A DNA stretch of 22,843 bases from positions 1 to 22,843 of IMG/VR virus record IMGVR_UViG_3300021197_001297. One strand, written 5' to 3'. Shown piece after piece: positions 7,021 to 22,120 of this stretch (position 1 is its first letter; each line of letters starts with the position of its first letter). This DNA is from a virus. Under the pieces are notes generated by a model, which saw nothing but the letters and a program-made list of their open reading frames with translations, made no database searches and was not told where the DNA came from. Both the position numbers and the translations under genes were made by a program.

Positions 7021-10000
7021 TTAGTTCCCTAAATTTGCAATTTCTCCTGTGTTTTTGATTCTTAGTGGAATATAAATGAACTCAACTGATTTGATTGGCT
7101 CAATTGCTATATCCACGTACAGTTCGTTCCTGTCAATCCTTGTAGAAGTGTTGTTTGTCTCATCACATACTACTAGGAAGTCATACAATGCTCTCTGACC
7201 TGTCAACTCCAACAAGAATGATTCAACTGCACCCTTGATCTCGTTTCTAGTCAGTTCATCATTTGGTTCAAAGATGAATGGTTTAGCGATTGCATCCAGT
7301 TGTGTTCTTAGATACACTGCCAATCTCGAAACGTTGATCCTGTCTAATGCAGAACTTGCCGTTGTTTTAGTCAAGTTACCAAAGTTAACGATCCCTGCAC
7401 CTGAGAAGAAAGTGATTGGATTCACTTTCACTTCATGCATTGAATCTCTCACTGACTCCGTAACAGATATTGTTTCAAACTCTCCAGACGCTGTGTCAAT
7501 GTAACCAACTGATGTGGCATTGTCAACAACACCTCTTCTTGTTCCTGATGGTGCGAACCATGGGAAAGCGATGTTATCGTTGTTTGCTAGTGTCCTCATC
7601 ATCATGTGTGATGGTGGAACAACGATTGATTTACCTGTGTTGTCTGTTGTTTGACCAGATGGATAAAACACACCCAAGAAATCACTTGAGCTCACTAGAC
7701 CGTCTTCACCGTTGTCAAGTGCTGACGCTGTGTTGTTAGCCCAGTCTTGGATTGAAGTTGATGTGCCTTCCAGTCTAAATGGAGTGTCACCAACTACAAA
7801 TGCTGTGTTGTTTCTGTCTGTGTTTAGGTTAATCATGTTTTGGATCAACTCTGGGTAACCAGGTGTTGCAATCACGTTATAACCTCTTTGGTCTTCTCTG
7901 ATTGCTTGGTTAGTGTCGATCTCTGATTTAAGTTGTTCAACGATCACTTTTCTCTGTGCTTTTCTACCGAAAGAACCAGAACCGTCTGCGTTGTTGCTTG
8001 ATTTAGTAACCCATCTGTCAGGGAAGTAAGTTGATACGCTCTCGTTACTTTGTCTGATGTTACCTAAACCAGTTGCGCCGCTTCCTGGATATTTCGTAGT
8101 TGTGATGTAACTGTTTTTGTATTCCTTAACATTGTAACCAGATCTTCTTGTGTTCCATAACATGATACCTTGTGGGTAGTTTGCTGGATCTGGAGCATCT
8201 GGATCTAAGAAGCCATCGCTTAATAAATCTTTGATGCTACTAGAAGTTCCTGCACCGCCTGTTGACAATGAGTCTGTCTTGTCTGCCGCTGTGTGCAATC
8301 TAGCATCTGCGAACACGATACCGTCTTCTGTTGTTTGGTCTGCTTTGTCTACCAACTCCCACGCCGCACCTGAAGTGGTAACTGCCACTTGGTTAGATGT
8401 GTTCGTTGAAGTCAACGTTGCCGCTGTGTTGTATTTGTAAAGTTTTGGATAGTTTTCTAAATCACTAGTGTCAATCCATAAGTCGTTAGTTACAAGTGCA
8501 GTACCGTCTGACTGTGTAGTTGGTGCTGTTGCACTGAACTGTGGACCATTTGGGTCTGTGGTTGAGTATGCTGTTGCATATCCAACGAAAGTAGTTCCAT
8601 TGTGTGCCATGATGTCTGCCTCGTCAGTTGCAGTGTGGTACCATAGTGTACCGTCCGCTGGTTCTAGAGTTGGCGAACTTGTAGACGCAGTGTAACTTAA
8701 TCTCTTCCAGTTACTTGCCATGATACCTGTGTTAGCACTTGAGTCAAGGCTCTCACCTGTTGGTAGGTCATACAAGTTGTCAAGCAAAGTTGAACTGTTT
8801 GCTGTGAATGTTCCGTAAGCGTGTGCCGTCGTTGCACTGAAACCTGCATCTGCTAATGGTGTTCCTGATGTGTCAAACATTCTGAACTCACCACCCAGTG
8901 CGTGTGTCATAGTGATCGCACCTGTGCTTAATTTACTTGCACTCACGTTTGTTAAACCTGCACCGTTCACTGCCGCGATAAAGTCATCAGCACCTGTACC
9001 ACCTAGTGTTACTGTTACTGCACTGTTTAATGCTTCTTGGTTCTTAACTGATTCTTGAATTTCAAAAGTTTCTGAACTTGTGAAAGTCGGTGAAGTTGTG
9101 TTACTTGTAATTGTAGTAGCACCGCCTTCGTATCTAAAGAATTGGAAGTCTGCAACATTTCCAGTTGAGTCTACTCCTGCTAAACTGTCTGCTCCCATGC
9201 TTTCTTCAGTTACATTGTACTGTGCATATAAGTTTCCAACTGCTAAACCAGTTCCACCGTTCGCTGGATCTAGATTAAAGATTGCTGAGTGATGATTACT
9301 GTGAAGTGGACTAGAAATTGTTGAGAAACTAGCACTTGCTGTACTGTAAAGTTTAGCAACAAGAGATGCACCTGAGTTTGCACTTGTAGTCTTGAACCAA
9401 ACTGAACCGTTAGGTCTGTTCTCGTCTGCAGTTTTCCAAGTTGGTCTGCTTGTGTGTGCCGCTTGTAAAAGTTGAACACCGTTGTATGTGCCAGCAGTGA
9501 TTCCTAGATCTGCTAATCCAGTTCCTGTGTTTGGTTCGAATCTGATAGTGTTTGCACCCGCTGTTGAGTCACCTAAAAATTTACCGTTGTGGAAGATTTC
9601 TAAGTTACCTGTTGTGCTGTTCACACTTGCTGTGACGTTTGTTACGTTAGATCCAATTGCTGTTGCAACATCTGACAATGCTGTCCCACCGTAAGTGATT
9701 TCAACACCGTTGATTGTGATTTTTTGACCACTAGTAACCGTTGTTCCTGAAGCAACTGTCACTACCGGTAATGATGTGTGCCAGTCAGTAGAACCAATAT
9801 GTACCCAAGTGTTACTTGCTGTTTTCTTGTAGATTTTGTTTGTTACGTGTGTTGTGTTTATTGCGTAATCACCAATTACACCGATTGAAGTCTTAGGTGC
9901 ACCAGTGCTCACCGTACCAACTAGATCACTAGTCGATGTTATCAATGTTGGAGTAATTGCTGTGAATGTTTGATTAGTCTGTGACCATTCGAATAAACCG

Positions 10001-10431
10001 TAACTGCTTGATGCAAGGTCAAACCAGTATGTGCCATCTGCCGGGGCCGCTGTAGGTGCCAAGGCACTTCCAACTAATTCTGTTGTGTTCACGTTTGCTC
10101 TTAGTACGAATGCTCTGTTGGCAACTCCTAAGAAACTGTATGCCGCTTGTAAGCCATACTCGTTCAGTTCATAACCGTTTATGCTATTTCCTGATGCGTC
10201 TGTGTAGAATTTCGGATCTCCGAAAGTCTCTGTTAATTCTCTCTGAGACGAGATCAAATAAGCAGTGTTGGCGTTTGCAGTCTGTGTTCCTACAGCAGTG
10301 CCGTCGCCTGCTCCATTTTGCTTGTCCTGTGATGATGCTACTATGAATAGTGGTGTTGTACCCGCATCTGATGGTACGTAGAAACTTTCGTTTATTACTG
10401 AAACCTCTACTCCTGGTGATGTTAATGCCAT
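7021..10431 (-). CDS. 18: Tail sheath protein gp18 with giant central insertion
   Basis: The contractile sheath subunit around the tail tube. The N-terminus (MALTSPGVEVSVINESFYVP, 1-20; AYLISSQRELTETFGDP, 57-73; NEYGLQAAYSFLGVANRAFV, 90-109) and the C-terminal third (about 735-1136, including RINVSRLAVYLRTQLD and FEPNDELTRNEIKG) are clear sheath signatures. At 1136 aa it is far longer than T4 gp18 (659). Residues about 120-735 form a Thr/Ser/Ala/Gly-rich insertion with at least five short Trp-containing modules and two diverged copies of a domain resembling the flagellin/hook IN motif (about 228-318 and 447-540). Such an insert would lie on the outer surface of the sheath (inference). A Shine-Dalgarno AAGGAGA precedes the ATG, and the late promoter is about 40 bases upstream, giving a true leader. 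Confidence 0.95.
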   Translation of the reverse strand: MALTSPGVEVSVINESFYVPSDAGTTPLFIVASSQDKQNGAGDGTAVGTQTANANTAYLISSQRELTETFGDPKFYTDASGNSINGYELNEYGLQAAYSFLGVANRAFVLRANVNTTELVGSALAPTAAPADGTYWFDLASSSYGLFEWSQTNQTFTAITPTLITSTSDLVGTVSTGAPKTSIGVIGDYAINTTHVTNKIYKKTASNTWVHIGSTDWHTSLPVVTVASGTTVTSGQKITINGVEITYGGTALSDVATAIGSNVTNVTASVNSTTGNLEIFHNGKFLGDSTAGANTIRFEPNTGTGLADLGITAGTYNGVQLLQAAHTSRPTWKTADENRPNGSVWFKTTSANSGASLVAKLYSTASASFSTISSPLHSNHHSAIFNLDPANGGTGLAVGNLYAQYNVTEESMGADSLAGVDSTGNVADFQFFRYEGGATTITSNTTSPTFTSSETFEIQESVKNQEALNSAVTVTLGGTGADDFIAAVNGAGLTNVSASKLSTGAITMTHALGGEFRMFDTSGTPLADAGFSATTAHAYGTFTANSSTLLDNLYDLPTGESLDSSANTGIMASNWKRLSYTASTSSPTLEPADGTLWYHTATDEADIMAHNGTTFVGYATAYSTTDPNGPQFSATAPTTQSDGTALVTNDLWIDTSDLENYPKLYKYNTAATLTSTNTSNQVAVTTSGAAWELVDKADQTTEDGIVFADARLHTAADKTDSLSTGGAGTSSSIKDLLSDGFLDPDAPDPANYPQGIMLWNTRRSGYNVKEYKNSYITTTKYPGSGATGLGNIRQSNESVSTYFPDRWVTKSSNNADGSGSFGRKAQRKVIVEQLKSEIDTNQAIREDQRGYNVIATPGYPELIQNMINLNTDRNNTAFVVGDTPFRLEGTSTSIQDWANNTASALDNGEDGLVSSSDFLGVFYPSGQTTDNTGKSIVVPPSHMMMRTLANNDNIAFPWFAPSGTRRGVVDNATSVGYIDTASGEFETISVTESVRDSMHEVKVNPITFFSGAGIVNFGNLTKTTASSALDRINVSRLAVYLRTQLDAIAKPFIFEPNDELTRNEIKGAVESFLLELTGQRALYDFLVVCDETNNTSTRIDRNELYVDIAIEPIKSVEFIYIPLRIKNTGEIANLGN

Positions 10432-10470
10432 TTTTCGTATTCTCCTTGCAAGTTACGTATATACTAGAGT

Positions 10471-10478
10471 TATTTATT
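10471..10478 (-). promoter_or_regulatory. Late promoter element AATAAATA for gp18
   Basis: AATAAATA on the minus strand lies about 40 bases before the gp18 ATG, leaving a leader of roughly 33 bases with a Shine-Dalgarno AAGGAGA. It is back to back with the HNH-like gene promoter in a 116-base divergent gap (10432-10547). Confidence 0.75.
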
Positions 10479-10520
10479 CAATCATACGGTTTTGTTGACA
10501 TAATTTACCGTTTTCCAGGT

Positions 10521-10532
10521 GCCTATATAGGC
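10521..10532. promoter_or_regulatory. 12-bp perfect palindrome GCCTATATAGGC
   Basis: A perfect inverted repeat in the gp18/HNH divergent gap, ending 2 bases before the plus-strand late element. It could be an operator or chance; no function is shown. Confidence 0.3.
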
Positions 10533-10534
10533 GA

Positions 10535-10542
10535 CGTAAATA
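10535..10542 (+). promoter_or_regulatory. Late promoter element CGTAAATA for HNH-like gene
   Basis: CGTAAATA on the plus strand ends 5 bases before the ATG at 10548, the same geometry as TerS (AGTAAATA, 5 bases). No Shine-Dalgarno sequence intervenes. Confidence 0.6.
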
Positions 10543-10547
10543 CACAC

Positions 10548-10907
10548 ATGCAGTACAAAGACAGACCGTTGTGTACGGAGTGCAATACCAAGCCCAGAGC
10601 CTATGCCTACAAGAGATATGGCAGGGTGTATTGGCGTAGTCGGTGCGACACCTGTATCAGGAAACGGGCCGGCAAGAGGGTTGGCGGTGTGACAGCACTG
10701 CAAAGATCCGGATACAAGAAACACAAGAAATGTGAACTGTGCGGATTCAAAGCACAAGATAAGGCACAACTGGATGTGCTGTTTGTGGATGGTGATCTGA
10801 GGAATACTGCGTCTACTAATCTAAAAACTGTTTGCGCCAATTGCCAACGGTTGACCAGTACCCGTAGATTGGGATGGCGTGTCGGTGATCTCGTCGCTGA
10901 CGATTAG
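10548..10907 (+). CDS. HNH-fold zinc protein with catalytic histidines missing
   Basis: A 119-aa basic protein with four CxxC knuckles: C9/C12, C33/C36, C62/C65 and C96/C99. The second half has the HNH layout: CELCGF, then LDVLFVDGDLRN (75-86), then NLKTVCANCQRL (91-102). Typical HNH enzymes have His-His where this protein has L78 and F79, and often His after the last CxxC where it has Q100. The zinc scaffold is kept but the metal-dependent cutting centre appears lost, so a DNA-binding role is more likely than cutting (inference). The start at 10548 is chosen because a longer frame to 10350 runs antisense into gp18 and crosses its promoter. The 3' end overlaps the convergent dNMP kinase gene by 87 bases. 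Confidence 0.8.
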   Translation: MQYKDRPLCTECNTKPRAYAYKRYGRVYWRSRCDTCIRKRAGKRVGGVTALQRSGYKKHKKCELCGFKAQDKAQLDVLFVDGDLRNTASTNLKTVCANCQRLTSTRRLGWRVGDLVADD

Positions 10908-11474
10908 GCTGTCAATTTTAGCATATAGTTCTTCCTTCGTCCCATTGTTCTCAATGACGAAATCAAACTCTTCCTTTGCCCAGGCGTATTCTGAACTGTG
11001 TATGCCTTTTGGTTCTATGTTGCCCTCTGTGTAATCAACGAACCAATCCGGATCTTGTCCTCTTTTTACGAGTATGATCTTGCCTCCACGTGCCCTGATC
11101 TGTTTCACTTCGTTGGGGAATCTTGTGTCTGCTATCACGGTGTCTTGCCCTTTGTATCTGCCAATGCAACTGTCCACCCAGATACCGTCGTACATCTGAC
11201 CACGCATCACTTCCGTGCCAAAGTATTGTAAAACCCATCTCGGAGTAGTTGGCTTGCCAAATTTATTGCTCCAAAACTCGTCTGGTTGTTCTCTCCATTG
11301 TCTGCTGGATTCCGTGTCTCCTTCGAGAAGAGCCCTGTCCCAGTTGAACATGGATGCCACGGCATCTTTCAGGCTTTTTGCGAAACTATCTTTTTGATAT
11401 CCGTGTCGTTCTACAAGTCTGTCTGCAACTGTTCCTTTACCAGAACCTATTAAACCTACTATACCTATTAACAT
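10821..11474 (-). CDS. 1: Deoxynucleoside monophosphate kinase, T4 gp1 type
   Basis: Phosphorylates dNMPs to dNDPs for phage DNA synthesis, in the cytoplasm. The 217 residues include the P-loop GLIGSGKGT (7-15), and DTVIADTRFPNEVKQIRA (115-132) matches the T4 gp1/adenylate-kinase-like fold (T4 gp1 is 241 aa). It is the only DNA-metabolism kinase in the window and stands inside a structural cluster. The last 28 residues (190-217, DTPSQSTGTGQP type) are low-complexity and lie in the 87-base convergent overlap with the HNH-like gene, so this tail may be a recent extension. A sigma70-like promoter (TTGAAA, 17 bases, TATAAT) ends 6 bases before the ATG, and no Shine-Dalgarno sequence is present. 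Confidence 0.93.
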   Translation of the reverse strand: MLIGIVGLIGSGKGTVADRLVERHGYQKDSFAKSLKDAVASMFNWDRALLEGDTESSRQWREQPDEFWSNKFGKPTTPRWVLQYFGTEVMRGQMYDGIWVDSCIGRYKGQDTVIADTRFPNEVKQIRARGGKIILVKRGQDPDWFVDYTEGNIEPKGIHSSEYAWAKEEFDFVIENNGTKEELYAKIDSLIVSDEITDTPSQSTGTGQPLAIGANSF

Positions 11475-11480
11475 AGGATT

Positions 11481-11509
11481 ATTATACTATTTTTTTAAAC
11501 GTTTTTCAA
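11481..11509 (-). promoter_or_regulatory. Sigma70-type promoter for dNMP kinase
   Basis: On the minus strand, TTGAAA (11504-11509), a 17-base spacer and TATAAT (11481-11486) lie in the 3' end of the 60-aa gene. TATAAT ends 6 bases before the ATG, so transcription would begin at the start codon. Confidence 0.7.
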
Positions 11510-11669
11510 TCTCTTTGATTGCTTTTCTTACAGATTTCAATATTGATGCTCTCAAGGTTTTCTTGCGTTCTTTCAACGCTTTTATGCTCATTGTTTCCAA
11601 TTCCTGTACTAGTTGTTCTAGATCATCCAGCGAGAGGTCAGAATAATTTCTGTGATGGGAGTCTTTCAT
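11487..11669 (-). CDS. Small helical late protein
   Basis: A 60-aa, charged, probably all-helical protein. It begins MKDSHHRNYSDLSLDDLEQL, with a long amphipathic helix or coiled coil over residues 14-60 ending in EIEKRLKK. No family is recognised. Evidence that it is real: it fills the gap between gp13 and gp1 exactly, it has TTTAAATA 6 bases before the ATG as other late genes here do, and its heptad-like hydrophobic spacing is regular. Its 3' end contains the sigma70-type promoter of gp1. Function unknown. Confidence 0.75.
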   Translation of the reverse strand: MKDSHHRNYSDLSLDDLEQLVQELETMSIKALKERKKTLRASILKSVRKAIKEIEKRLKK

Positions 11670-11675
11670 GCTAGG

Positions 11676-11683
11676 TATTTAAA
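11676..11683 (-). promoter_or_regulatory. Late promoter element TTTAAATA
   Basis: TTTAAATA on the minus strand lies in the 30-base gap after gp13 and ends 6 bases before the ATG at 11669. Confidence 0.55.
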
Positions 11684-11699
11684 TGATGTTTGGTGAGGA

Positions 11700-12461
11700 T
11701 TAACCAATAACAAAACTGTGTGGCGTTCCGCCCTCTTGGAAGTTTCCTATGTCTGCTTCCAATCTTTCTATCTCTGCTTGGCCCTCGCTCTTGAGTGCAT
11801 CACCGTTCAGCGTCGTGCCTCCTTGTGGTCCTGCGATGGTATTGAATTTGCCTCTTGCTTCGCCTAACATTATTTTAGACACAGCAAGTGTGTAATCTCT
11901 GATCCATGGTTTTGAATATATGTCTTTAAACAAAGTTATGTCTGGTCTAAAGTTATCAGTGTGCATAAGCACGGTCTCGTCATCTGCCCTAGGTCTTTGA
12001 GTGATAGTCAATTTTTTAGTTGCAACATCAAAATGGAACTGTATGAAACTCCCAAACATCTTCCCTATCATTTCTTGGTATGATGCGAAAGCGTAGTAAG
12101 TTGCCAATCCACCGGTTGCACCTGCTCTCAACAAGTAGGTATTTGTGTATGCCAAGTTGAATGGTTCAAACAATGTTCCACCTTCACCGCCTTCAGTTCG
12201 TGACCCAACAGTTCTTCTGTTTAGATTTCTCACGTTGATTATCTCATCTGGTAAAATATATGAATTTTGATTTTTCTTTAATTCTAGGAACGCATATGAT
12301 TCTTCCACGGCATTTGATGATCGCTGTCTAAATTTGTTGACTGCTCTTTCCAGTGCCGTTTGATAGTGTTTTGGGTCCAATTCCACATCAATCATCCCGT
12401 CACCGAGATTGTTCTTAACGTAATCGAAAATTTCCTGTTGTCCTGTTTGTAGTTCTGACAT
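11700..12461 (-). CDS. 13: Neck protein gp13
   Basis: gp13 and gp14 form the neck below the portal that closes the filled head and accepts the tail. The 253-aa protein matches the T4-like gp13 layout: an N-terminal helical segment with VELDPKHYQTALERAVNKFR (residues about 26-45), then EESYAFLELKKNQNSYILPD, a mid-region SYQEMIGKMFGSFIQFHFD, and the C-terminal KPWIRDYTLAVSKIMLGEAR helix. It is somewhat shorter than T4 gp13 (309). In-frame ATGs exist at 12479, 12467 and 12461. The TATAAATA element covers the first two, and only 12461 lies 5 bases after it, so 12461 is preferred. Unlike T4, it is transcribed away from gp14. Confidence 0.88.
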   Translation of the reverse strand: MSELQTGQQEIFDYVKNNLGDGMIDVELDPKHYQTALERAVNKFRQRSSNAVEESYAFLELKKNQNSYILPDEIINVRNLNRRTVGSRTEGGEGGTLFEPFNLAYTNTYLLRAGATGGLATYYAFASYQEMIGKMFGSFIQFHFDVATKKLTITQRPRADDETVLMHTDNFRPDITLFKDIYSKPWIRDYTLAVSKIMLGEARGKFNTIAGPQGGTTLNGDALKSEGQAEIERLEADIGNFQEGGTPHSFVIG

Positions 12462-12466
12462 ACTCA

Positions 12467-12474
12467 TATTTATA
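12467..12474 (-). promoter_or_regulatory. Late promoter TATAAATA for gp13
   Basis: A perfect T4 late consensus on the minus strand, ending 5 bases before the ATG at 12461. It is back to back with the gp14 element, 14 bases apart. Confidence 0.8.
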
Positions 12475-12477
12475 GTC

Positions 12478-12491
12478 ATTGCCTAGGCAAT
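12478..12491. promoter_or_regulatory. 14-bp palindrome between gp13 and gp14 promoters
   Basis: ATTGCCTAGGCAAT is a perfect inverted repeat centred between the two divergent late elements and touching the plus-strand one. It could be a shared operator or simply reflect symmetry; no binding protein is known. Confidence 0.4.
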
Positions 12492-12496
12492 AAATA
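12489..12496 (+). promoter_or_regulatory. Late promoter element AATAAATA for gp14
   Basis: AATAAATA on the plus strand ends 8 bases before the preferred gp14 ATG at 12505. The in-frame ATG at 12496 overlaps the element itself. Confidence 0.75.
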
Positions 12497-12504
12497 TGTA
12501 TGAT

Positions 12505-13674
12505 ATGCCAAGATTATCCATTTTTAAGCCTGAAAAGGGCAACGACTACAAGTTCTTTGATCGCAACATCAACGAGATGTTTCAGGTGGGCGGCACAGAT
12601 CTACACCTACACAAATACCTAGGTCCCTACGACCAGGGAGACACAAACAAGGACGGAGCGGCATCTCCCACACAACCACAGTATTCTGGTGATAGTTTGA
12701 ACGAGAGAACTATACAAGATTTATTATTTCTAGAAAACAGAGATAGAAAATATTCAGATGATGTCTATGTTGTTAGAGGAATATACAACGTGCAAGATGC
12801 AGACTTTAATCTATCGCAGTTTGGCATGTTCTTACAGAATGACACATTATTCCTCACTGTTCATTTGAATGACATCGTAGAAAGAATTGGAAGAAAGCCA
12901 ATGAGTGGTGATGTCATTGAATTCCCACACATGAAAGAAGATTATTCGTTAGATGAGAGTGTGCCTATAGCACTGAAAAGATACTATGTGGTTGAAGATG
13001 TAAACAGAGCGGCCGAAGGATTCTCGCAGACTTGGTGGCCACACTTGCTAAGATTGAAAATGAAAACACTAGTGGACTCTCAGGAATTCAGAGATGTAAT
13101 CGGTGACGCGACAACAGAAGGTTCTGTTGCCAGTTACATGAGCACGTATAACAGAGAAAAAAGTATCAATGATCAGGTTGTTGCTCAAGCAGAAGCAGAC
13201 GCACCTAAGTCAGGATTCAATTACAAACAATATTATGTGGCACCGATAGATGAAAGAGGAAACATACGTACCGAAAATGTTAACACAGAAGATCAAAGGG
13301 CCAGCAGTGATAACACTGTAAATGCAACAATAGACACTCCGGCAAGTTCTCACTATGGTTTCTATCTAGATGGAGACGGTGTTGCACCTAACGGAAACCC
13401 TGCTGGTTTTGGAATATCATTTCCAACGTCTGGTGTGGATCAAGGAGATTACTTCTTGAGGACAGACTTCTTACCAAACAGATTGTTCCGTTATGATGGA
13501 ACCAGATGGGTCAAAATAGAGGACAGTGTGAGAATAACTACAACGAACACTGATTCTAGAAGCAACTACAAAACAAGTTTTGTAAACAACACAACAGAAT
13601 CAACTATAAATGGTTTAACAGTTACACAAAGACAGTCGTTGACAGATGCTTTGAAACCAAAGGCTGACAATTAA
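12505..13674 (+). CDS. 14: Neck protein gp14 with C-terminal extension
   Basis: The partner of gp13 in the neck complex. The 389-aa protein starts MPRLSIFKPEKGNDYKFFDR. The T4 gp14 core is visible at about 65-200: ERTIQDLLFLENRDRKYSDD, then FGMFLQNDTLFLTVHLNDIV, PMSGDVIEFPHM and YYVVEDVNRAAEGFSQTWW. T4 gp14 has only 256 residues; the extra C-terminal 150 contain a Trp module, GDYFLRTDFLPNRLFRYDG followed by TRWVK (about 308-331), which also occurs in gp15 and gp18 here. An ATG at 12496 would add three residues but overlaps the promoter. The stop overlaps the gp15 start (TAATG). It is on the opposite strand from gp13 and nearly all other late genes. Confidence 0.9.
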   Translation: MPRLSIFKPEKGNDYKFFDRNINEMFQVGGTDLHLHKYLGPYDQGDTNKDGAASPTQPQYSGDSLNERTIQDLLFLENRDRKYSDDVYVVRGIYNVQDADFNLSQFGMFLQNDTLFLTVHLNDIVERIGRKPMSGDVIEFPHMKEDYSLDESVPIALKRYYVVEDVNRAAEGFSQTWWPHLLRLKMKTLVDSQEFRDVIGDATTEGSVASYMSTYNREKSINDQVVAQAEADAPKSGFNYKQYYVAPIDERGNIRTENVNTEDQRASSDNTVNATIDTPASSHYGFYLDGDGVAPNGNPAGFGISFPTSGVDQGDYFLRTDFLPNRLFRYDGTRWVKIEDSVRITTTNTDSRSNYKTSFVNNTTESTINGLTVTQRQSLTDALKPKADN

Positions 13675-15116
13675 TGCTACATTTTTACGAAGGACAGGTT
13701 AGGAAATTTCTCACTCAATTCATTAGGATCTTGAGTAATTTTTCTGTAGAGACAGGTAGGGGCAAAGATGATTCTATCAGTTTAAGGGCAGTGCCTGTCG
13801 TTTACGGAGATCCAACAAGGCAGGTTGCGAACATCATAAGGAATAACAGTGAGAATGCACTTAACTATGCCCCTAAAATTGCGTGTTATGTAAGAGAATT
13901 GAATTACGATAGGGAAAGAATGCAAAATCCTTATCACATAGAAAAGCAACACCTGAGGGAAAGAGGTATAGATGCGGACGGCAACTATACAAACGAATTG
14001 GGTGCAGGATACACAGTTGAGAAAGTTATGCCTTCGCCTTTCAGATTAGAAGTCACAGCAGATATTTTTTCATCAAACACAGACCAAAAACTACAGATAA
14101 TGGAACAGATATTATACTTGTTCAATCCTGACTTTGAAATACAAAAAACCGACAACTACATCGACTGGACCAGTTTAAGTTATGTGGAACTAACAGGCAC
14201 AACATTCAGTTCGAGAACGATACCTGTGGGTGCAGAATCTGAGATCGATGTTGCATCTATGACTTTTTCAATGCCAATATGGCTATCTCCGCCTGTGAAA
14301 GTTAAGAAATTAGGTGTTGTACAAAAGATCATTATGAGCATATACGACGACGACGGAGGAATAGCAAAAGGTCTGATAGACGGAGAACTTACATCTAGAA
14401 GTTACATTACACCAAACAATTTTGGTTTGTTAGTCACAGGAAACCAGTTAAGATTGCTAGGGTCAACAGGCACAAATGTCAAGTCAGGCGGTGATGGATT
14501 CCAATCAGGTGCAAACGAACCTAACAACTTTGATCCGTTCGAAACGTTTGGTCCTGCAGTCAACTGGAAGGTATTGTTAGATCAGTACGGAAAAGTAACA
14601 AATGGTACATCACAGATAAGATTGACACAACCAAATGGAAATGAGATCATCGGCACAATCGCAACAACGTCACTGGATGACACAATATTATTGTATACCA
14701 TAGACGATGATACAATACCAAGCAACACACTGACCGCAGTCAAAAAGATCATAAATCCAGCAACATTTGACCCAGGCTCTCCTGCAAACGGCGACAGATA
14801 CTTGGTCATAAACGATGTGGGAGATTCAACAGCAAGTTTTCAAAGTTCTAATTGGGGTACGCTTGTGGCGAGTGTGGGTGACATCATAGAATACAACAGC
14901 ACAACAAGTAAATGGAACATAGCCTTTGACGCTTCGAACCCAGACAGCACACAACACTACGTTACCAACTCAAACACAGGTATTCAGTACAGGTTCAATG
15001 GCACAGAATGGGTCAAATCATACGAGGGTGTTTACACACAAGGCAATTGGAGCATAGTGCTAGACGGTGGAGCAGATCCCGGGTACAACTCAAGCCTTGA
15101 CGCAACTACTCCTTAA
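13674..15116 (+). CDS. 15: Tail terminator/sheath-stabiliser gp15 with extension
   Basis: gp15 caps the finished tail and binds the neck. The first 230 residues match the T4 gp15 pattern: FYEGQVRKFLTQFIRILSNF (4-23), ISLRAVPVVYGDPTR (35-49), MPSPFRLEVTADIFSSNTDQ (119-138), KLQIMEQILYLFNPDFEIQ (139-157) and MTFSMPIWLSPPVKV (196-210). At 480 aa it is much longer than T4 gp15 (272). The extension holds two Trp modules near 366-417 (PGSPANGDRYLVIN; GDIIEYNSTTSKWN) and 424-448 (ending YRFNGTEWVKSY). Translation is coupled to gp14 by TAATG, giving a gp14-gp15 operon. Confidence 0.92.
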   Translation: MLHFYEGQVRKFLTQFIRILSNFSVETGRGKDDSISLRAVPVVYGDPTRQVANIIRNNSENALNYAPKIACYVRELNYDRERMQNPYHIEKQHLRERGIDADGNYTNELGAGYTVEKVMPSPFRLEVTADIFSSNTDQKLQIMEQILYLFNPDFEIQKTDNYIDWTSLSYVELTGTTFSSRTIPVGAESEIDVASMTFSMPIWLSPPVKVKKLGVVQKIIMSIYDDDGGIAKGLIDGELTSRSYITPNNFGLLVTGNQLRLLGSTGTNVKSGGDGFQSGANEPNNFDPFETFGPAVNWKVLLDQYGKVTNGTSQIRLTQPNGNEIIGTIATTSLDDTILLYTIDDDTIPSNTLTAVKKIINPATFDPGSPANGDRYLVINDVGDSTASFQSSNWGTLVASVGDIIEYNSTTSKWNIAFDASNPDSTQHYVTNSNTGIQYRFNGTEWVKSYEGVYTQGNWSIVLDGGADPGYNSSLDATTP

Positions 15117-15126
15117 TTGTTATAAT
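15097..15126 (+). promoter_or_regulatory. Sigma70-type promoter for Nudix gene
   Basis: TTGACG (15097-15102), an 18-base spacer and a perfect TATAAT (15121-15126) span the gp15 stop. TATAAT ends 5 bases before the ATG, leaving no room for a normal leader. Confidence 0.7.
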
Positions 15127-15131
15127 AATAC

Positions 15132-15560
15132 ATGGAAAAAAATATAGTATGTTCTGGTGCCCTGTTCTACTCTACAAGCACTAGACGTTTCTTATTCCTG
15201 CAAAGAACGGATAAAAAAACACAAGGAATGTGGGGATTGGTTGGCGGCAAATCTAAATTCTCGGAAAGTGCCTTTGAAGGACTAAAGCGTGAAGTAGAGG
15301 AAGAGACAGGCAGTTTGCCTAAATTTAAAAAAGTAATTCCACTAGAAATGTTTACATCAAACGATCAGAAGTTCTTCTTCCACACATATCTCATAGCCAT
15401 AGAATCTGAATTTATTCCTCGACTTAATGAAGAACATTCTGGTTACTGTTGGACTGCTTTTGAATGCTGGCCCAAGAACCTACACATGGGTTTAAAGAAT
15501 ACTTTGAACAATAAATCTATAAAAGGTAAATTACAAACTATTTTGGATTTAATTACTTAA
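15132..15560 (+). CDS. Nudix hydrolase
   Basis: A 142-aa Nudix-fold pyrophosphatase acting on a nucleoside diphosphate derivative; the substrate cannot be read from sequence. The Nudix box is G39-x5-E45-x7-R53-E54-V-E-E57-E58-T-G60, complete at the metal-binding REVEEETG core; only the last hydrophobic position is Ser61. Upstream LFLQRTDKKTQGMWGLVGGK (21-40) is the usual first strand and loop. It is not obviously the T4 NudE type. It has its own sigma70-like promoter and no Shine-Dalgarno sequence, while the flanking genes are late virion genes. It ends against a bidirectional terminator shared with the fibre gene on the other strand. Dilution of damaged or signalling nucleotides is a plausible role (inference). 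Confidence 0.93.
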   Translation: MEKNIVCSGALFYSTSTRRFLFLQRTDKKTQGMWGLVGGKSKFSESAFEGLKREVEEETGSLPKFKKVIPLEMFTSNDQKFFFHTYLIAIESEFIPRLNEEHSGYCWTAFECWPKNLHMGLKNTLNNKSIKGKLQTILDLIT

Positions 15561-15577
15561 TCAACCAGCACTAAAAA

Positions 15578-15603
15578 AAAAGGCGACCCGAGAGCCGCCT
15601 TTT
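15578..15603. terminator. Bidirectional terminator
   Basis: An 8-bp perfect stem AAAAGGCG / CGCCTTTT with a 10-base loop, preceded by further A and flanked by T on the other side, so it has a U-run in both directions. It sits between the convergent Nudix and fibre genes. Confidence 0.88.
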
Positions 15604-15623
15604 GTTCTACTAAAAAGTATGAA

Positions 15624-15631
15624 TATTTATT
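15624..15631 (-). promoter_or_regulatory. Orphan late promoter-like AATAAATA
   Basis: AATAAATA on the minus strand overlaps the stop codon of the 405-aa fibre gene and points into the terminator 20 bases away. No minus-strand gene follows until gp13. It may be a relic or produce only a very short RNA. Confidence 0.4.
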
Positions 15632-16847
15632 AGTTGTTAGTTCTCACCGCACAGTTTACCAGTTTGATACCTGCGTCTGTTGAGCTCTCTAATGCTCTAC
15701 CAATAACGTTGAAAGGAGAGATTGACTCACCTGACGCTACTGCTCTAGCACAACCTTTAATACTTGAAGTAACAAGTCTCTGACCTTTTGTCACAGCACC
15801 TGTTACTCTCACAGGAGTTCTTCCTGTCATTGCCACGAATGGGTGTGAGTCATTGTTACCTGCCGCCGCGTTCATGGCGTATGCTGGCATGTCAGAAATA
15901 ACACCAAAAACGTTTTCAGACATTTCTGAAGTTGATTCTGTGATTTCTGCTGATCCACCTACTTCTACTACTGCACCTGCTGTCATTGGAGCGTCTGCTT
16001 CGAAACGCTCGGCAACGTCCGCATACTGAGCCGAAGTTGCTACGGCGTGTACTACGTTGGCCCTAATGTCAATTAGGTCCGCTGTACCTGATGGTCCTTC
16101 AGATCCACCCTCTGATCTTCTGAAAGCAGTAAAGGCACCGCCTGCATTGCCATGGATAGTTGTTCCGTCATCCGCGAATGATTCGTCCCATGCCCAAAGT
16201 AATGGCATCTCTGTTGCACTTGAGCCTTCACCTCTGTTGATCTGTAATCCTGAAACTGTAGGCATACCTGAGTTTGAAGAAACATTTCTGTTAACCTCAA
16301 TTATGTTATCTTCAACTGATAGTGTTGCTGTGTTGATAATAGTTTCAGTACCGTCTACTGTTAAGTTTCCGTGTACCCTCACTGTACCTTGAGTGATCGT
16401 CAACTGTGTGGCACTGTTTACAACTGCTGTCTGAGCCGTATTGGAAACTGTGAAAGTTGAGTTCGTGTCCCCTGATGTCAGTGTTGTTGATGATAGTGCA
16501 CCGAGTTCAGTGTCGACGTATGCCTTGATCGACTGCTGTGAAGCAACCGATGTGGCACTGTTAGATGCCATGTTGTCCTCATCTTTTAAAAATCCTGATA
16601 GTAAGTTACCAGCATCTATGTTTGAGAGGTTATTACCTGTGCCGTTGGCATCAAGTGTTTTGTTTGTAAATGTAAGCGTATCAGATGCTATCAAGGCATC
16701 TTGATCGTCTACGTATTTCTTGTTTGACACGTCACCGTCACCTGATGGTGCCGCTGTAGCCAAACCTGTGATTGTGTTTGCCGAGGCTGATATTGTTATA
16801 TCACCTACTTCCAAACCGTTGTTAACTCTAAAGTTACGTGTTGTCAT
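15630..16847 (-). CDS. Tail fibre/adhesin protein with YADVAE C-terminal domain
   Basis: A 405-aa fibre-type protein. The N-terminus (about 1-50) has TNGLEVGDITISASANTITG-like shaft sequence; residues 86-113 carry the DED...SQQSIKAYVD repeat shared with the next two fibre genes. Residues about 157-222 hold the marine fibre motif NLTVDGTETIINTATLSVED, NIIEVNR and LLWAWDES. The C-terminus (about 268-405) starts ATSAQYADVAERFEADAP and continues TGRTPVRVTGAVTKGQRLV; such domains end many phage fibres and are sometimes annotated as intramolecular chaperone or G2-type processing domains, but no cleavage site is proven here. A Shine-Dalgarno CGGGAG precedes the ATG and a GCTAAATA element lies over the upstream stop. 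Receptor binding or fibre folding is likely. Confidence 0.82.
   Translation of the reverse strand: MTTRNFRVNNGLEVGDITISASANTITGLATAAPSGDGDVSNKKYVDDQDALIASDTLTFTNKTLDANGTGNNLSNIDAGNLLSGFLKDEDNMASNSATSVASQQSIKAYVDTELGALSSTTLTSGDTNSTFTVSNTAQTAVVNSATQLTITQGTVRVHGNLTVDGTETIINTATLSVEDNIIEVNRNVSSNSGMPTVSGLQINRGEGSSATEMPLLWAWDESFADDGTTIHGNAGGAFTAFRRSEGGSEGPSGTADLIDIRANVVHAVATSAQYADVAERFEADAPMTAGAVVEVGGSAEITESTSEMSENVFGVISDMPAYAMNAAAGNNDSHPFVAMTGRTPVRVTGAVTKGQRLVTSSIKGCARAVASGESISPFNVIGRALESSTDAGIKLVNCAVRTNN
16509..16592 (-). repeat. DED-QQSIKAYVD protein repeat, copy in 405-aa fibre
   Basis: Residues 86-113, ending SQQSIKAYVD, form one of about six clear copies of a ~30-residue repeat spread over three adjacent fibre genes. 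Other copies lie at 18276-18374, 18894-18986, 19764-19868, 20949-21047 and 21297-21389, with a diverged one at 19284-19358. Confidence 0.75.
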
Positions 16848-16883
16848 GGTTCCATATCTCCCGCATGATTGTTAATATAGATA

Positions 16884-16891
16884 TATTTAGC
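16884..16891 (-). promoter_or_regulatory. Late promoter element GCTAAATA for 405-aa fibre
   Basis: GCTAAATA on the minus strand overlaps the stop of the 1123-aa fibre gene. About 36 bases separate it from the ATG at 16847, leaving a leader with a CGGGAG ribosome site. Confidence 0.5.
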
Positions 16892-19800
16892 CTGCTAAAG
16901 CAGATATTCTGTACCCAGACACTGTGGTGCTACCACCTGATGTGCTTGATGCAAAAAGTTCAAGACTGTTTTCTGTAGATGTGTCAAAAGCCGCTGTAAA
17001 ATCAAGTTGTGAGGTACCTTTTGTGGACACATAAGGACCGTTGACCACCGCCGGCACTCCGGGTGTTGCCGCTGTGTAAATTTCCTGTATGCTGTATGCA
17101 CCCTCGGTACCGTTGGCACCAACTATGAAATAAACAGCACCGTTGGCTTCATCAATGTCCATTAGGTCCACGGCTGTAGCACTTGAACTTACTGTGACTG
17201 CCGCAAACGCTTTTTGGTTGGAGTTGCTCTCAGCAGTCATGTTGTCTTTTAATAAAATTTTGTGTATTGTAAGATTAAGATTGGGTTCCAAACCTGCGCC
17301 ACTTAAAACAACATTATCGCCTGATATTGCCGCTGTTAATTCGAGCAATGGATTATTTCCTGATCTAGTATGTCCATAACTTGTTATATATGCTGTTGTA
17401 CCGTCATGTACAACTAGTGCCTCAACGACGTCCGTTTCTGTTTTACTGTCGTTGTCTACGCTGATAAAATATTTTGCTCCCCTAAATGATGCATGAGCAA
17501 AAGTATCGATGGACTCCGAGGCCGAGTCAACGTCAGTGTTGCTAGTTGTCACAGTGTTACCTCTCGTGGCATCTGCTGTGCTTGACGACATGGCAATTTT
17601 GTAAAAACTCGCCTTACAGTCAGCACTGGTTCCTGTTGCCCTTACCCTGTACTGTCCATTCGAAACATCTGTAGCAAGTGTTGGTATAGTAGTTCCGCCG
17701 GCGGACTCGATTCCCCTACGGTTACCTAAGAAAGATGCTGAATCATTATTTGTTACTGCAAAACATTCAGCACTGATCACCTCATTTACGAGATCATTGT
17801 GTACTAAGAAGTAAAATGCACTATCTATAAATGTTGCATTTATGCTGTCGATGGTTCTTGCCGCTGTGCCAAGGGATTTGTTGTTACTGACAGTTGCTAA
17901 TGTGTCATCTGAAATTGTAGTTGCGACTGTGTCAAAACTTAAAGTTCCTGATCCATCTGTAACAAGTGCCTGTCCGGCTGTTCCATCTGAAGTTGGCAGA
18001 GTGAATGCAACACCACCCGAAGTGATTACCACCGGGCCTGTGCCATTAGCAATTAACTCTAAAGGTGCATTTGAGGCATTTGTTGAAATAGTATTGTCTG
18101 TTATTGTTACACCGTCCAGTGTTGAAGCACCGGTTACTCCTAATGTAGTTGAAACTGTTGCCGCTCCTGTCACTGCAAGTGTTGAACCATTAAAAGTTAA
18201 ATTTGCTTCTCCTTGTAAAGCGTGTGCTCCTGTTACTGTTGCGATAGTGTTGTCTGTCGAGCCTGACAATGTTGCTTTTGTGTCAGCATATGCTTTGATT
18301 GATTGTTGTGTCGCAAGTTTTACATTGGAGTCTGATCCCATTGAATCTTCATCTAGGATACCTGTCACAGTCGCTCCGTCACCAGCAACACTTAAATTTT
18401 CTAATACTACTGTTCCTGACCCGTTAGCATTGATCTCTAGATCAGCATTTGAACTGTTAGAAGTTATGATGTTGTCTGTTACAGTAACGCCATCAACTTC
18501 TAAAGAATTAATTTTTAAACTTCCTGCGTCAATACTAATTCCACCTGACTTATCGCCAGCGGTTGCAGTTGTAGTTCCTAGAACAAATGTGTCTGCTGAT
18601 TCATCCCAGATTATTGCCGCGTTGTTTCCTGTAGATCCTCTTTCAATTATAATACCAGCATCATTAAGTGACTGAGATATTCCTGTGTTCAATTCAATGA
18701 TGTTATCTGCGATTGTTGTGTTGGTTGAGCTCACTGTTGTTGTGTCCCCACTCACAGTCAAGTCACCTGATATTGTCACAGCACCTTCCACTGCAAGTGT
18801 TGAACCGTCGAATGTTAAGTTAGATTCTCCCTGTATGGCGTGTGCACCTGTCACTGTCGTTATCTGGTTGTTTGTCGATCCTGATAGGACTGCTTTGGTG
18901 TCCGCATATGCCTTGATCGATTGCTGAGTGGCTAACGCAGTAGCACTGTCTGAGCCCATAGCGTCTTCATCAACTATTGAAGTGACTGATGTAGTATTGC
19001 TTATAGTGAAGCCTGCACCAACATCTAATGCACCGTCAACGTTTAGTGCGTCATCAATTCTTACTGCTGTTGAATCTGATGAGCTGATTGAATTAGTAAC
19101 CAATGCAGTAGATGTCACTGATGACAGTCCCGTCAGTGCAGTGTCTAATGCTATTGTAATTGTATTACCAGAACCTGTTGTTGAAATGTTTGCTCCGCCT
19201 GATACTTGCAGTGTTTCAGAGTCTAGGTCTATGTTCAACGCTGTGGAATCGTCAGTAGCGAAATCTAAATCTTGTGCAGTGACTTGTGCATCTACATATG
19301 TTTTGATTGCTTTGGCCGATGCTAGAGTGTCATCGGATCCAGATACACTTGTAAGATCTGTATCTAAAACACCTGATTTTAGATCTGCGACATCAATATT
19401 TGAAATGCTGTTACCTGTTCCTTCAACGTCAAAAGTTTTATTTGTGAACGTGTCTGTGGTTGCTTTACCAACTAATGTGTCAGTGGCCGCTGGCAGTGTT
19501 ACTGTTACGTCTGCCGTTGACGCTGGACCAATCAAGGTCACTCCGTTTGTTCCGTTGTCCGTTCCTTCTAGAAACTTAATTTGTCCTGCTGTGCTGTTAC
19601 TCCCTGCACCTATAACTAGACTGTGTCCTGTGGCAGTTGTTGTAGTGGCCGCTAAAATTGTAATTCTGTCCGTACCATCTACTTCTAATGTTACGTTGCC
19701 GGTGCCAGAGTCTGCAACAGTCACGTTACTGTCACCCTGGGCTATTGCAGTTGTGCTTACAGCACTCACTTCTGAGTCGACGTACGCTTTAATACTTTGT

Positions 19801-20258
19801 TGTGTAGCCAGTGACGTTGCACTATCTGAGGATAGGTTGTCTTCGTCAAGTATGGTGGTCACTGTTGCACCACTAGTGCCTATTTTTAAATTCTCAAGGT
19901 TTACAGTTCCTGTTCCTGATGCGTTAATTTTGAAGTCATCGTTGCTTCTGTTGGTACTAATCGCGTTGTCACTTATAGTGATATCATTTAATATTATACC
20001 GCCCGTTCCTGATGTTTTTAATGTCAAGTCTGCGTTGGATGGAGCAAGTAGGTTAGTGATAGTGAAGTCACCATCTGAAGCAAATTCTAAGGCATTTCCT
20101 GCCGCATTTACTTTTAATAATTGTCCTGCTGACCCTATTGCACTTAGGCCCGTACCACCATTTGCTACTGGAACCGTGTCGCCTGATTGGAATTCGGCCA
20201 TTCCAGTGGCTACGTTAGATTCATTAAAGACTACTCGTACCGGTGTTTTATCTGCCAT
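16887..20258 (-). CDS. Long repetitive tail fibre protein
   Basis: An 1123-aa fibre protein rich in S, T, A, D, G and V. Residues 1-60 include the common fibre start GTGLSAIGSAGQLLKVNAAG. The shaft (60-790) repeats APSNADLTL-type strands and three full copies of the DED...LATQQSIKAY repeat (131-165, 425-455, 629-661), plus a diverged one (301-325). Residues 495-562 carry GDLTVSGDTTTVSSTNTTIA, NIIELN and AAIIWDES. The C-terminal third (800-1121) is three diverged copies of a ~95-residue beta domain, each with a FxxAxYFxxV-like core; as the distal end it is the likely receptor-binding part (inference). An in-frame TAG two codons upstream fixes the start at 20258 or later. No good Shine-Dalgarno sequence precedes it. 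Confidence 0.88.
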   Translation of the reverse strand: MADKTPVRVVFNESNVATGMAEFQSGDTVPVANGGTGLSAIGSAGQLLKVNAAGNALEFASDGDFTITNLLAPSNADLTLKTSGTGGIILNDITISDNAISTNRSNDDFKINASGTGTVNLENLKIGTSGATVTTILDEDNLSSDSATSLATQQSIKAYVDSEVSAVSTTAIAQGDSNVTVADSGTGNVTLEVDGTDRITILAATTTTATGHSLVIGAGSNSTAGQIKFLEGTDNGTNGVTLIGPASTADVTVTLPAATDTLVGKATTDTFTNKTFDVEGTGNSISNIDVADLKSGVLDTDLTSVSGSDDTLASAKAIKTYVDAQVTAQDLDFATDDSTALNIDLDSETLQVSGGANISTTGSGNTITIALDTALTGLSSVTSTALVTNSISSSDSTAVRIDDALNVDGALDVGAGFTISNTTSVTSIVDEDAMGSDSATALATQQSIKAYADTKAVLSGSTNNQITTVTGAHAIQGESNLTFDGSTLAVEGAVTISGDLTVSGDTTTVSSTNTTIADNIIELNTGISQSLNDAGIIIERGSTGNNAAIIWDESADTFVLGTTTATAGDKSGGISIDAGSLKINSLEVDGVTVTDNIITSNSSNADLEINANGSGTVVLENLSVAGDGATVTGILDEDSMGSDSNVKLATQQSIKAYADTKATLSGSTDNTIATVTGAHALQGEANLTFNGSTLAVTGAATVSTTLGVTGASTLDGVTITDNTISTNASNAPLELIANGTGPVVITSGGVAFTLPTSDGTAGQALVTDGSGTLSFDTVATTISDDTLATVSNNKSLGTAARTIDSINATFIDSAFYFLVHNDLVNEVISAECFAVTNNDSASFLGNRRGIESAGGTTIPTLATDVSNGQYRVRATGTSADCKASFYKIAMSSSTADATRGNTVTTSNTDVDSASESIDTFAHASFRGAKYFISVDNDSKTETDVVEALVVHDGTTAYITSYGHTRSGNNPLLELTAAISGDNVVLSGAGLEPNLNLTIHKILLKDNMTAESNSNQKAFAAVTVSSSATAVDLMDIDEANGAVYFIVGANGTEGAYSIQEIYTAATPGVPAVVNGPYVSTKGTSQLDFTAAFDTSTENSLELFASSTSGGSTTVSGYRISALAG
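16896..17861 (-). repeat. Three tandem diverged C-terminal domains in long fibre
   Basis: Residues about 800-890, 915-1003 and 1027-1121 align by eye around ID...F..A.YF..V, then V.E..V..DGT.AY, then a final KI/RI strand. They differ at most positions, so duplication is old. Confidence 0.65.
18287..18311 (-). repeat. 25-bp exact direct repeat, copy 1
   Basis: A 25-base identical segment encoding QQSIKAYA/V is shared with 21302-21326 in another fibre gene. It marks the best-conserved DNA part of the fibre repeat and could serve as a recombination site. Confidence 0.8.
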
Positions 20259-20316
20259 AATCTAGTTCTGTGCCCGGCCTTCTTGCACTCACCGGATGCA
20301 TTTCCTTTTGTTTACG

Positions 20317-20324
20317 TATTTATG
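20317..20324 (-). promoter_or_regulatory. Late promoter element CATAAATA for long fibre gene
   Basis: CATAAATA on the minus strand lies 58 bases before the ATG at 20258, in the 75-base gap between two fibre genes. The leader contains a short open frame (see findings). Confidence 0.7.
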
Positions 20325-20333
20325 TGTAGTAAT

Positions 20334-21677
20334 TTAAAATTGAAATAGCGTAGGACCAGAGGCATTGGTAGATAATGCTGTTCCGTCTGCTAAAGTAAAT
20401 GCCTGTTGGGCCTCTGTGTAAACAGGCACAGTTTCCACAGTTCCGTTGAATTCCAATTCTAGATCTGCTGTTTTTGCCAGCAGTTGTGCATCAGTTAAAT
20501 TACTGCTACCGTCACTAACAAATACCTTTACAATTTGCACTGGTCTAGCACCTGTTTTTGTTGTTTTACCTGCTAGTACAAGCGGTTGTTCACCGATCTT
20601 TGAACCTGTTGGTAAACTAGCACCTGTTGCCGCAATCGCCAATGTTCCTGATCCATCTGATGAAATTGTTGCTCCGCCTAGGTCAATTGTTTCGGCCGCA
20701 ACGTACAATGTTTGCCATCTTCTAGAACTTGATCCTAACTGGAAAACACCGTCTTGGCTAGGTATCAAGTTACCTGCTATCTCAATCCCGGTTGATGAAT
20801 CCTCAGTCTGTATAGTGGTGCCCGACACTCTCAACCCTTCAATCACAACGTTACCATTGCTTGAGGTCAAAGTAAGATCAGCATTTGAAGGAGCCGCTAT
20901 TGTTGAACCTATAAAACTTAAATCTCCAATACTTACATTGGCAATCTCCGTGTCTACGTAGGCCTTAATTGATTGTTGTGTTGCTAATAAAGTTGCACTG
21001 TTGCTTGAAAGGTCATCCTCGTCAGCGATACCAGTAACAGTGGCACCACTTGCAAGTGCCAAACTAGTTGACGATGATAAGGCACCAGACACTGTGGCTG
21101 TGCCATCTACAATTAACCCTTCATTTATGTTTACTGTGCTTGAATCATCTGCACTTATGGTTGTACCACTAAAACGCAATCCTGATGCAACCACTCCACC
21201 TGTCCCACTTGGAGATAAAGTTATGTCTGCATTACTCGGTGATATTATTGTACTTCCGTTGAAACTAATATCTCCCAAGTCTCCTCCAGCGTTTGCGTCA
21301 ACATATGCTTTGATTGATTGTTGTGTTGCCAGAGCGGTGTCACTATTTGAACCAAAAGCGTCCTCATCGAGTATAGTGGTTACAGTTGCACCAGAACCGA
21401 TCTTGAACGAATCATTTACAAGCACAACTCCTGAGCCTGCTGTTGTAAGGGTCAAATCACCGTTAGATGGTGCACTAATTGTTGAACCTGTGATCGTCAT
21501 GTCACCTAGTGACTTTAATGTATCAGCGTATTCCAGACTGGTCCAATTTGCTGACCCAGTACCAATCTTAAATCTGTTAGTGTCCGACTCCCAGCCAAAT
21601 TCTCCTGCCGCCAAAGTTGGATTATTTGACGTCCAGTCAGCGGCTGTATCTCTACGTAATTGTATCTGTGTTGGCAT
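20334..21677 (-). CDS. Tail fibre protein with Mtd-like N-terminal domain
   Basis: A 447-aa fibre protein. Residues 1-50 (MPTQIQLRRDTAADWTSNNP, LAAGEFGWESDTNRFKIG) match the N-terminal domain of phage major tropism determinant-type fibres, which attaches or nucleates the trimer. The shaft has three copies of a GDxxxxGSTIxxPSNADLTL strand repeat (57-86, 134-163, 250-279) and two DED...LATQQSIKAYVD repeats (97-127, 211-243). Residues 306-330 (DGVFQLGSSSRRWQTLYVAA) are a typical fibre motif seen before C-terminal tips. The C-terminus (about 360-447) is a distinct non-repetitive domain. The start overlaps the preceding stop (TAATG), so it is coupled to the 144-aa gene. Confidence 0.87.
   Translation of the reverse strand: MPTQIQLRRDTAADWTSNNPTLAAGEFGWESDTNRFKIGTGSANWTSLEYADTLKSLGDMTITGSTISAPSNGDLTLTTAGSGVVLVNDSFKIGSGATVTTILDEDAFGSNSDTALATQQSIKAYVDANAGGDLGDISFNGSTIISPSNADITLSPSGTGGVVASGLRFSGTTISADDSSTVNINEGLIVDGTATVSGALSSSTSLALASGATVTGIADEDDLSSNSATLLATQQSIKAYVDTEIANVSIGDLSFIGSTIAAPSNADLTLTSSNGNVVIEGLRVSGTTIQTEDSSTGIEIAGNLIPSQDGVFQLGSSSRRWQTLYVAAETIDLGGATISSDGSGTLAIAATGASLPTGSKIGEQPLVLAGKTTKTGARPVQIVKVFVSDGSSNLTDAQLLAKTADLELEFNGTVETVPVYTEAQQAFTLADGTALSTNASGPTLFQF
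21302..21326 (-). repeat. 25-bp exact direct repeat, copy 2
   Basis: Identical over 25 bases to 18287-18311, about 3 kb away in a different fibre gene and in the same orientation. Confidence 0.8.
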
Positions 21678-22111: not shown

Positions 22112-22120
22112 GTACGCTCC

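Follow-up and report, generated by a model that had tools for sequence, protein, structure and literature searches.

The late promoters of T4 (box TATAAATA; gp55, gp33 and gp45) and the form of that box in cyanophage S-PM2, NATAAATA, are the closest described counterparts of an element located at the end of a fibre gene in IMG/VR virus record IMGVR_UViG_3300021197_001297. The window, meaning the entire 22.8-kb record (22,843 nucleotides), holds part of the genome of a marine T4-like phage; it encodes terminase, sheath, tube, gp13, gp14 and gp15, the genes of a contractile-tailed phage of the T4-like kind. The element, called the cassette below, has the same box as the T4 and S-PM2 promoters, fused to the fibre stop codon and followed by a conserved block and an intrinsic terminator. 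In contrast to T4 late promoters, the cassette promoter reads straight into the terminator with no gene between, and the bases predicted to be transcribed first are conserved. A second point of comparison is PeSL, the mobile regulatory cassettes of T4-type phages reportedly described by Arbiol et al. in 2010, in which early promoters are said to lie behind a stem-loop in many copies. Like PeSL, the cassette combines a promoter with a stem-loop in a small unit between swapped modules. Unlike PeSL as reported, it has a late promoter ahead of the stem-loop and occurs once per record searched; where PeSL-type elements reportedly have several scattered copies, the exact 13-mer core of the cassette is present in one copy in eight of nine records and is absent from the ninth. 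Late promoters and terminators of such type are already known. A conserved gene-less late promoter-terminator unit was not found described in the literature searched, which was a limited collection. An excerpt of one paper states that promoters that were not intergenic were excluded (PMC9004378), and a stop-fused, terminator-facing box would be dropped by an intergenic-only promoter filter.

Box, block and terminator at the fibre gene stop

The fibre gene is encoded on the minus strand (15630..16847), and its C-terminal region is weakly like Peptidase_G2/IMC, below the cut-off. Its TAA stop (15630-15632) has the bases AA in common with a minus-strand late-promoter box of the (T/A)ATAAATA form, AATAAATA (15624..15631), which would occupy positions -13 to -6. 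The conserved block TACTTTTTAGTAGAA follows on the same strand (15605..15619), with the predicted +1 at the A of 15618. An intrinsic terminator with an 11-bp stem comes next (15573..15603, minus strand), and its orientation suits the minus strand, with T9 there and 4 T on the plus strand. Its stem (15603-15578) is the strongest of 10 sites in 10000-22843, having 11 pairs compared to 5-7 in the other nine. Overall, this interval has about as many terminator-like sites as its shuffled versions (10 versus 9.4). The initial annotation had described a box overlapping the fibre stop and pointing into a terminator 20 bases on with no minus-strand gene after it, and all of this was borne out. It had also proposed an RNA of about 40 bases if the promoter is active, close to the 46 nt now predicted from the promoter and terminator (15573..15618, minus strand). 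The predicted transcript starts ACTTTTTAGTAGAA at A15618 and would consist of ACUUUUUAGUAGAAC, the hairpin and a U tail, with a calculated fold of -15.2 kcal/mol.

The ATAAATA motif occurs nine times in the window compared to 3.25 expected, a number reached in none of 100 shuffles; no enrichment is seen for the shorter TAAATA (16 versus 13.55 expected). The remaining eight ATAAATA are each no more than 60 bases from the start of a listed gene, and one (10471) is also within the overlapping HNH open reading frame (ORF). Boxes touch or overlap stop codons at 462-468, 3548-3553, 4084-4089 and 16884-16889, in agreement with the earlier remark that late elements overlap stops elsewhere. Four records chosen for holding the cassette (138, 91, 55 and 23 kb; 35, 31, 24 and 9 promoter-like sites, respectively) were scanned for a promoter running into a terminator within 90 nt, a unit rule that we set ourselves. 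Exactly one such unit was detected per record, and it was always the cassette.

Conservation of the cassette and its start-site signature

The first relatives had the box accompanied by the fixed block and the terminator irrespective of downstream content. Two families of fibre tips are named after their endings, TNN and SH. Two pattern scans, one of which used the 15-mer alone, together with the gp14 loci gave at least 140 distinct contexts. The box is at a fibre stop in 103 of these, and the other 37, which have neither the box nor a TNN or SH fibre end, are apparently chance matches. For the counts that follow, fibre tips were retrieved by protein and not by motif, so the motif did not select the loci, and identical contexts were merged. 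The TNN sample consists of 60 distinct contexts. The SH sample is 45 of 64 distinct contexts, defined as tips ending CAC with more than 76% identity plus L483; the remaining 19 comprise one TNN-type context (L470) and 18 distant tips. An alignment-based fibre search returned almost the same set of contigs as the TNN retrieval and was left out of the counts.

The cassette at the stop of this fibre family has the form TA[A/G]-TAAATA-N4-YACTTTTTA[G/A]TAG, then the intrinsic terminator. TAATAAATA is at the stop in 60/60 TNN contexts, and TAAATA is at the stop in 40/45 SH contexts. Lack of conservation of the site, which would have refuted the initial annotation, was not observed: TAAATA is present in 100 of the 105 contexts. 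YACTTTTTA is found in 59/60 TNN and 41/45 SH contexts, and the exact 15-mer TACTTTTTAGTAGAA in 53/60 and 24/45. The N4 spacer between the nearly invariant box and YACTTTTTA is free, with 13 and 17 different 4-mers in TNN and SH, respectively. The major base at upstream third codon positions averages 74% and 77% in the two tip samples. The agreement between TNN and SH is 58% at third positions of conserved residues, 91% in the stop plus box and 91% in the 15-mer; synonymous sites in the neighbouring fibre gene vary far more than the box does. The second position of the box is G in 31/45 SH contexts. These AGTAAATA boxes mostly have C as the following base (the first spacer base) and AATAAATA boxes have T, with exceptions; the pairing may reflect shared descent.

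A passage of one paper places the T4 late box at -13 to -6 and lists A(-13) as a variant (PMC2988020), and therefore the +1 is the sixth base past TAAATA. Excerpts of that paper and another place the late box of T4/S-PM2-type promoters upstream of the start by roughly one turn (PMC2988020, PMC2984593). The free spacer stops and the conserved block starts at -1/+1, where the T4 box position predicts. The signature Y(-1)A(+1), or YA, is present in all 105 cassette contexts (60/60 TNN and 45/45 SH). Boxes beyond the cassette terminators (50 distinct sequences that come from few gene families and are not independent) have Y(-1) in 50/50 and A(+1) in 49/50. YA is also found at gp13, at the 4904-6310 gene, at most gp18 sites and at HNH sites. 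TAAATA in coding sequence is associated with YA at 4/21 sites once 43 HNH-internal sites are removed and at 47/65 before their removal; the removed sites read as gp18 and HNH promoters, and a follow-up listing gives 64 sites. The HNH boxes form 33 distinct sites that all have YA, and the six displayed are all CGTAAATA, with G at the second position. In 6/18, the box upstream of the fibre gene itself is GGTAAATA. With G-second boxes ahead of HNH (CGTAAATA) and of the fibre gene (GGTAAATA), the AGTAAATA variant at SH tips seems compatible with a promoter. Of nine records, only the 138-kb one, which is the largest, gave a gp55-like late sigma gene (E 2.3e-24); the remaining eight are fragments, and the window genome is incomplete. 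Of the features of a T4-type late promoter, the cassette has, at the level of sequence alone, the 8-bp box and a start site about one helical turn off with the YA pair that is frequent in the clade, and a relative has a gp55-like sigma.

Readings of the cassette and the slot beyond it

We assign a probability of about 0.5 to the reading that a T4-type late promoter is active at this site and that, together with the terminator that follows after 20 bases, it makes up a tiny transcription unit of its own at the fibre gene's 3' end. RNA polymerase with a gp55-like late sigma would start at A15618 and stop after approximately 46 nt. The resulting short RNA would begin with a single-stranded and almost invariant 5' end, ACUUUUUA, and close with the terminator hairpin and a U tail, and the unit would travel with the fibre tip independent of the gene beyond. 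The conservation, the promoter signature, the terminator, the single copy in the records searched and the independence from downstream content can be read from the compared loci; we infer that the unit is transcribed and that it fires late. Selection may keep the RNA itself, for example as a small regulatory RNA acting via its U-rich 5' end, because conservation starts at +1 and weakens before the terminator. Judged from sequence, the cassette has the putative promoter, terminator and conserved transcribed stretch of its own that are expected of a small non-coding RNA gene, and a conserved secondary structure in the 5' part or a target was not found. If transcribed, it would be a defined small-RNA gene in uncultured marine phages. 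A more specific version is possible, although we would lean against it. The cassette would be a late regulatory RNA gene of about 46 nt, fused to the fibre-family stop and spread in a common group of marine T4-like phages. Its first bases A-C-U5-A may exert the effect, by seeding pairing or through slippage on the start-site U-tract that couples output to UTP.

Several results weigh against a promoter that makes a functional RNA. The Rfam search gave sub-threshold matches and none at the gathering score, which places the RNA in no Rfam family. A structure in the 5' part is unsupported, since the C15-G22 pair of a mini-hairpin is broken in 17/105 contexts without compensation. The search of nine records for a shared complementary target (13-mer, at most one mismatch) returned none; the matches were the cassette and two one-mismatch sites, each in a single record. 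The 8-mer complement TAAAAAGT, compared by eye in four records, has no site common to them except the cassette. TAATAA or TAGTAA could alternatively act as a tandem stop. Not every late promoter has YA: gp14 has T-G and the tube gene A-A, and the pair is also missing from the 60-aa gene and from most of the four fib2 sites. Within the SH set, L439, L455 and L457 have TAAGTA instead of TAAATA, and in L447 and L458, which retain TACTTTT, the box position is taken by TCATTA or TTATTA. The full cassette is absent from all 18 distant tips (49-62% identical). Four of these, one related group (L474-L476 and L479), have YACTTT at offset 12, one base closer to the stop, with no box; in 34-nt stretches drawn at random from these loci, YACTTT has a background rate of 2.6%. 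PA5oct, Atu_ph07 and Phosso also lack the cassette at their homologous fibre ends. In Atu_ph07 and Phosso a terminator comes soon past the fibre stop, and in PA5oct there is an overlapping gene. The fibre ends with YACTTT and no box (L447, L458, L474-L476 and L479) suggest that the block may be older than the promoter. They fit a 3'-end role in the fibre mRNA at least as well as a promoter, and our estimate for the promoter reading was lowered from 0.55 to 0.50 because the block persists without the box.

Such a role is the core of one competing explanation, in which the block acts at the 3' end of the fibre mRNA, where it shapes how RNA 3' ends are formed, or binds a protein as DNA, and its likeness to a late promoter (or a tandem stop TAATAA) is fortuitous. 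It agrees with the box-less fibre ends and with the presence of the block at a fibre-family stop in every context found. It could also draw on the arms ACTARTAAATA and TACTTTTTAGT, an imperfect inverted repeat with two mismatched pairs. However, the +1 signature and the free spacer fit promoter anatomy, a tandem stop leaves ATA and the block unexplained, and the long hairpin is disfavoured by folding, with uncompensated changes in the 3' arm (C-A at pair -1/22 in 17/105). We consider this explanation unlikely. A stable long hairpin formed by the two arms was itself rejected on the same grounds; the sole hint for it is that TAAGTA in L015, L439, L455 and L457 makes the A-C mismatch a G-C pair. 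We give little credence to the idea that the stretch is a recombination landmark, kept alike by fibre-tip exchange, providing homology for crossing over and not read. The stretch is found in two tip families with a protein identity of only about 50%, and its neighbourhood is a turnover hotspot, but N4 varies between constant flanks, and the upstream third positions and the terminator also vary, which is unexpected from exchange alone.

The other two explanations depend on the slot beyond the cassette, which was surveyed in 152 distinct contexts. This survey mixes motif-fetched and protein-fetched loci and required the motif, and its shares (72, 62, 13, 4 and 1) are not natural frequencies. Another box lies within 70 nt past the terminator in 72 contexts, a class defined by a box at most 70 nt from the T-run and not by a gene checked in each. 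A convergent Nudix gene follows in 62, and its stop falls in the A-run of the terminator in 53 of them. In 13, including L070 where it is a few bases past, an ATG is located at the T-run or a few bases away. Four contexts are of other kinds, and one is without a T-run by the rule. Translation of four of the 13 ATG contexts gave 190-191-aa frames with a common start, and the one that was scanned is an FkbM-type methyltransferase.

The window holds a remnant of an accessory minus-strand gene in this slot, AGTGCTGGTTGA (Ser-Ala-Gly-stop; 15561..15572, minus strand), which is 11/12 identical to gene ends adjoining Nudix in relatives. The remnant is between the terminator and the Nudix stop and is common to the window and the near-identical L001 and L088. 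The accessory gene end (SAG-stop) is at the Nudix stop in 15/61 loci, and L192 apparently has both ends of the gene with the middle missing. On the 61-tip gp15-Nudix tree the slot state changes at least 25 times, and the state in which the cassette is next to Nudix changes at least 12 times; L063 without the gene and L069 with it are near-identical sisters. In L066, L069, L077, L079 and L049 the accessory gene has a second box past the terminator, and the cassette box is still at the fibre stop. A minus-strand gene was probably lost from the slot of the window. The contents of the slot right of Nudix (window 15561 onwards; L001-L080) include the SAG-stop accessory gene, the FkbM-type methyltransferase in some and several unidentified gene ends.

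The cassette might be an attenuated promoter that drives the minus-strand gene of the slot by read-through of the terminator, the short RNA being what remains where the slot is empty, as in the window. The many different genes held by the slot would suit it, as would the 13 contexts with an ATG at or near the T-run, which have no box in the next 70 nt and include the four 190-191-aa frames. We regard it as quite unlikely in view of the 72 contexts with another box soon past the terminator and the 62 with a convergent Nudix gene, where there is nothing to drive and the box is still kept. The initial annotation had favoured a scar, an orphan promoter of a lost downstream gene that was stranded by inversion or insertion. 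The lost gene stands, given its 12-nt remnant, the slot genes of relatives and the fast turnover. The promoter as its trace does not stand, because relatives that keep the gene also keep the cassette and terminator and have a separate box for the gene beyond the terminator. The uniform orientation of the neck block, described below, also speaks against a scar, which we find hardly credible as the origin of the box.

Neck genes, their orientation and their promoters

The genes to the left of the cassette are a gp14-like neck/virion protein (12496..13674, plus strand; phrog_11591), a gp15-like tail sheath stabiliser (13674..15116, plus strand; PF16724, E 1.6e-25; phrog_11196/227) and a Nudix hydrolase (15132..15560, plus strand; PF00293). 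These and the HNH gene are the recognised plus-strand genes, as had been stated before, and further plus-strand ORFs in the window stand opposite minus-strand genes. The gp13-like head-tail adaptor (11700..12479, minus strand; phrog_211) diverges from gp14. The nearest named relatives of gp14 are at 35-37% identity in large-genome phages of Agrobacterium, Sinorhizobium and Pseudomonas, and relatives at 91-100% identity are frequent among viral contigs (80 loci used of at least 599). Among named phages there was no DNA match to the 4.9-kb region or to the 91-nt cassette region.

An inversion of the block had been proposed, with a synteny comparison as the check. That comparison gave the opposite orientation in 0/74 gp13/gp14 and 0/79 gp14/gp15 loci. 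All 74 loci showing both genes have gp13 on the minus strand and gp14 on the plus strand, and gp14 and gp15 are both plus in 79/79, gp15 and Nudix both plus in 63/63, and the HNH gene plus in 57/57. The divergent gp13 and gp14 pair is also found in Atu_ph07 and Phosso, where gp13 was recognised by phrog_211. Block inversion was rejected on the basis of the uniform orientation in the clade and the recurrence of the divergence in these two phages. PA5oct has gp14, gp15, Nudix and one more plus-strand gene facing a minus-strand fibre gene. The gene upstream of gp14 in PA5oct is not gp13 (phrog_20196 only), gp13 having been checked only at that neighbour.

A pattern scan of a genome collection gave three matches (L512, L513 and L514). 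L512 and L514 were rejected as clade members; the window proteins are unmatched there and the two look like chance. L513 (CAJQJC010000071.1) is a contig of the phage clade, with gp13-gp14-gp15-Nudix at 90-99%, inside a Candidatus Pelagibacter metagenome-assembled genome. Its binning is a weak hint of a Pelagibacter host, phage-contig binning being unreliable.

The late promoter of gp14 (12489-12496) is AATAAATA in 74/76 loci, and that of gp13 (12467-12474) is TATAAATA in 59 and AATAAATA in 15 of 74 loci. The T4 spacing places the +1 at the A of an in-frame ATG at gp13 (12461-12474), the 4904-6310 gene (6298-6304) and HNH (10535-10548). The ATG at the predicted gp13 +1 (12461) is probably its true start. 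The HNH gene (10350-10907, plus strand) has the box CGTAAATA directly before ATG 10548, which is inside the longer listed ORF and is probably the true start. The same spacing gives gp14 (12489-12505) a 3-nt leader, with ATG 12505 as its probable true start. An ATG peak is present 5-8 bases past the box in four records, with 20, 14, 9 and 11 sites compared to 0-3 per record at other spacings; the records share genes, and the counts are not independent. Some late mRNAs of these phages look leaderless. A remark in one paper calls phage transcripts 'often leaderless' (PMC5312081). The comparison gives a start-site sequence signature for much of the late regulon, including the probable leaderless late mRNAs. 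A perfect 14-bp palindrome, ATTGCCTAGGCAAT (12478-12491), lies between the divergent gp13 and gp14 promoters. CTAGGC is in only one of the four commonest gp14 upstream forms (6/77 sites), and the palindrome is probably due to chance.

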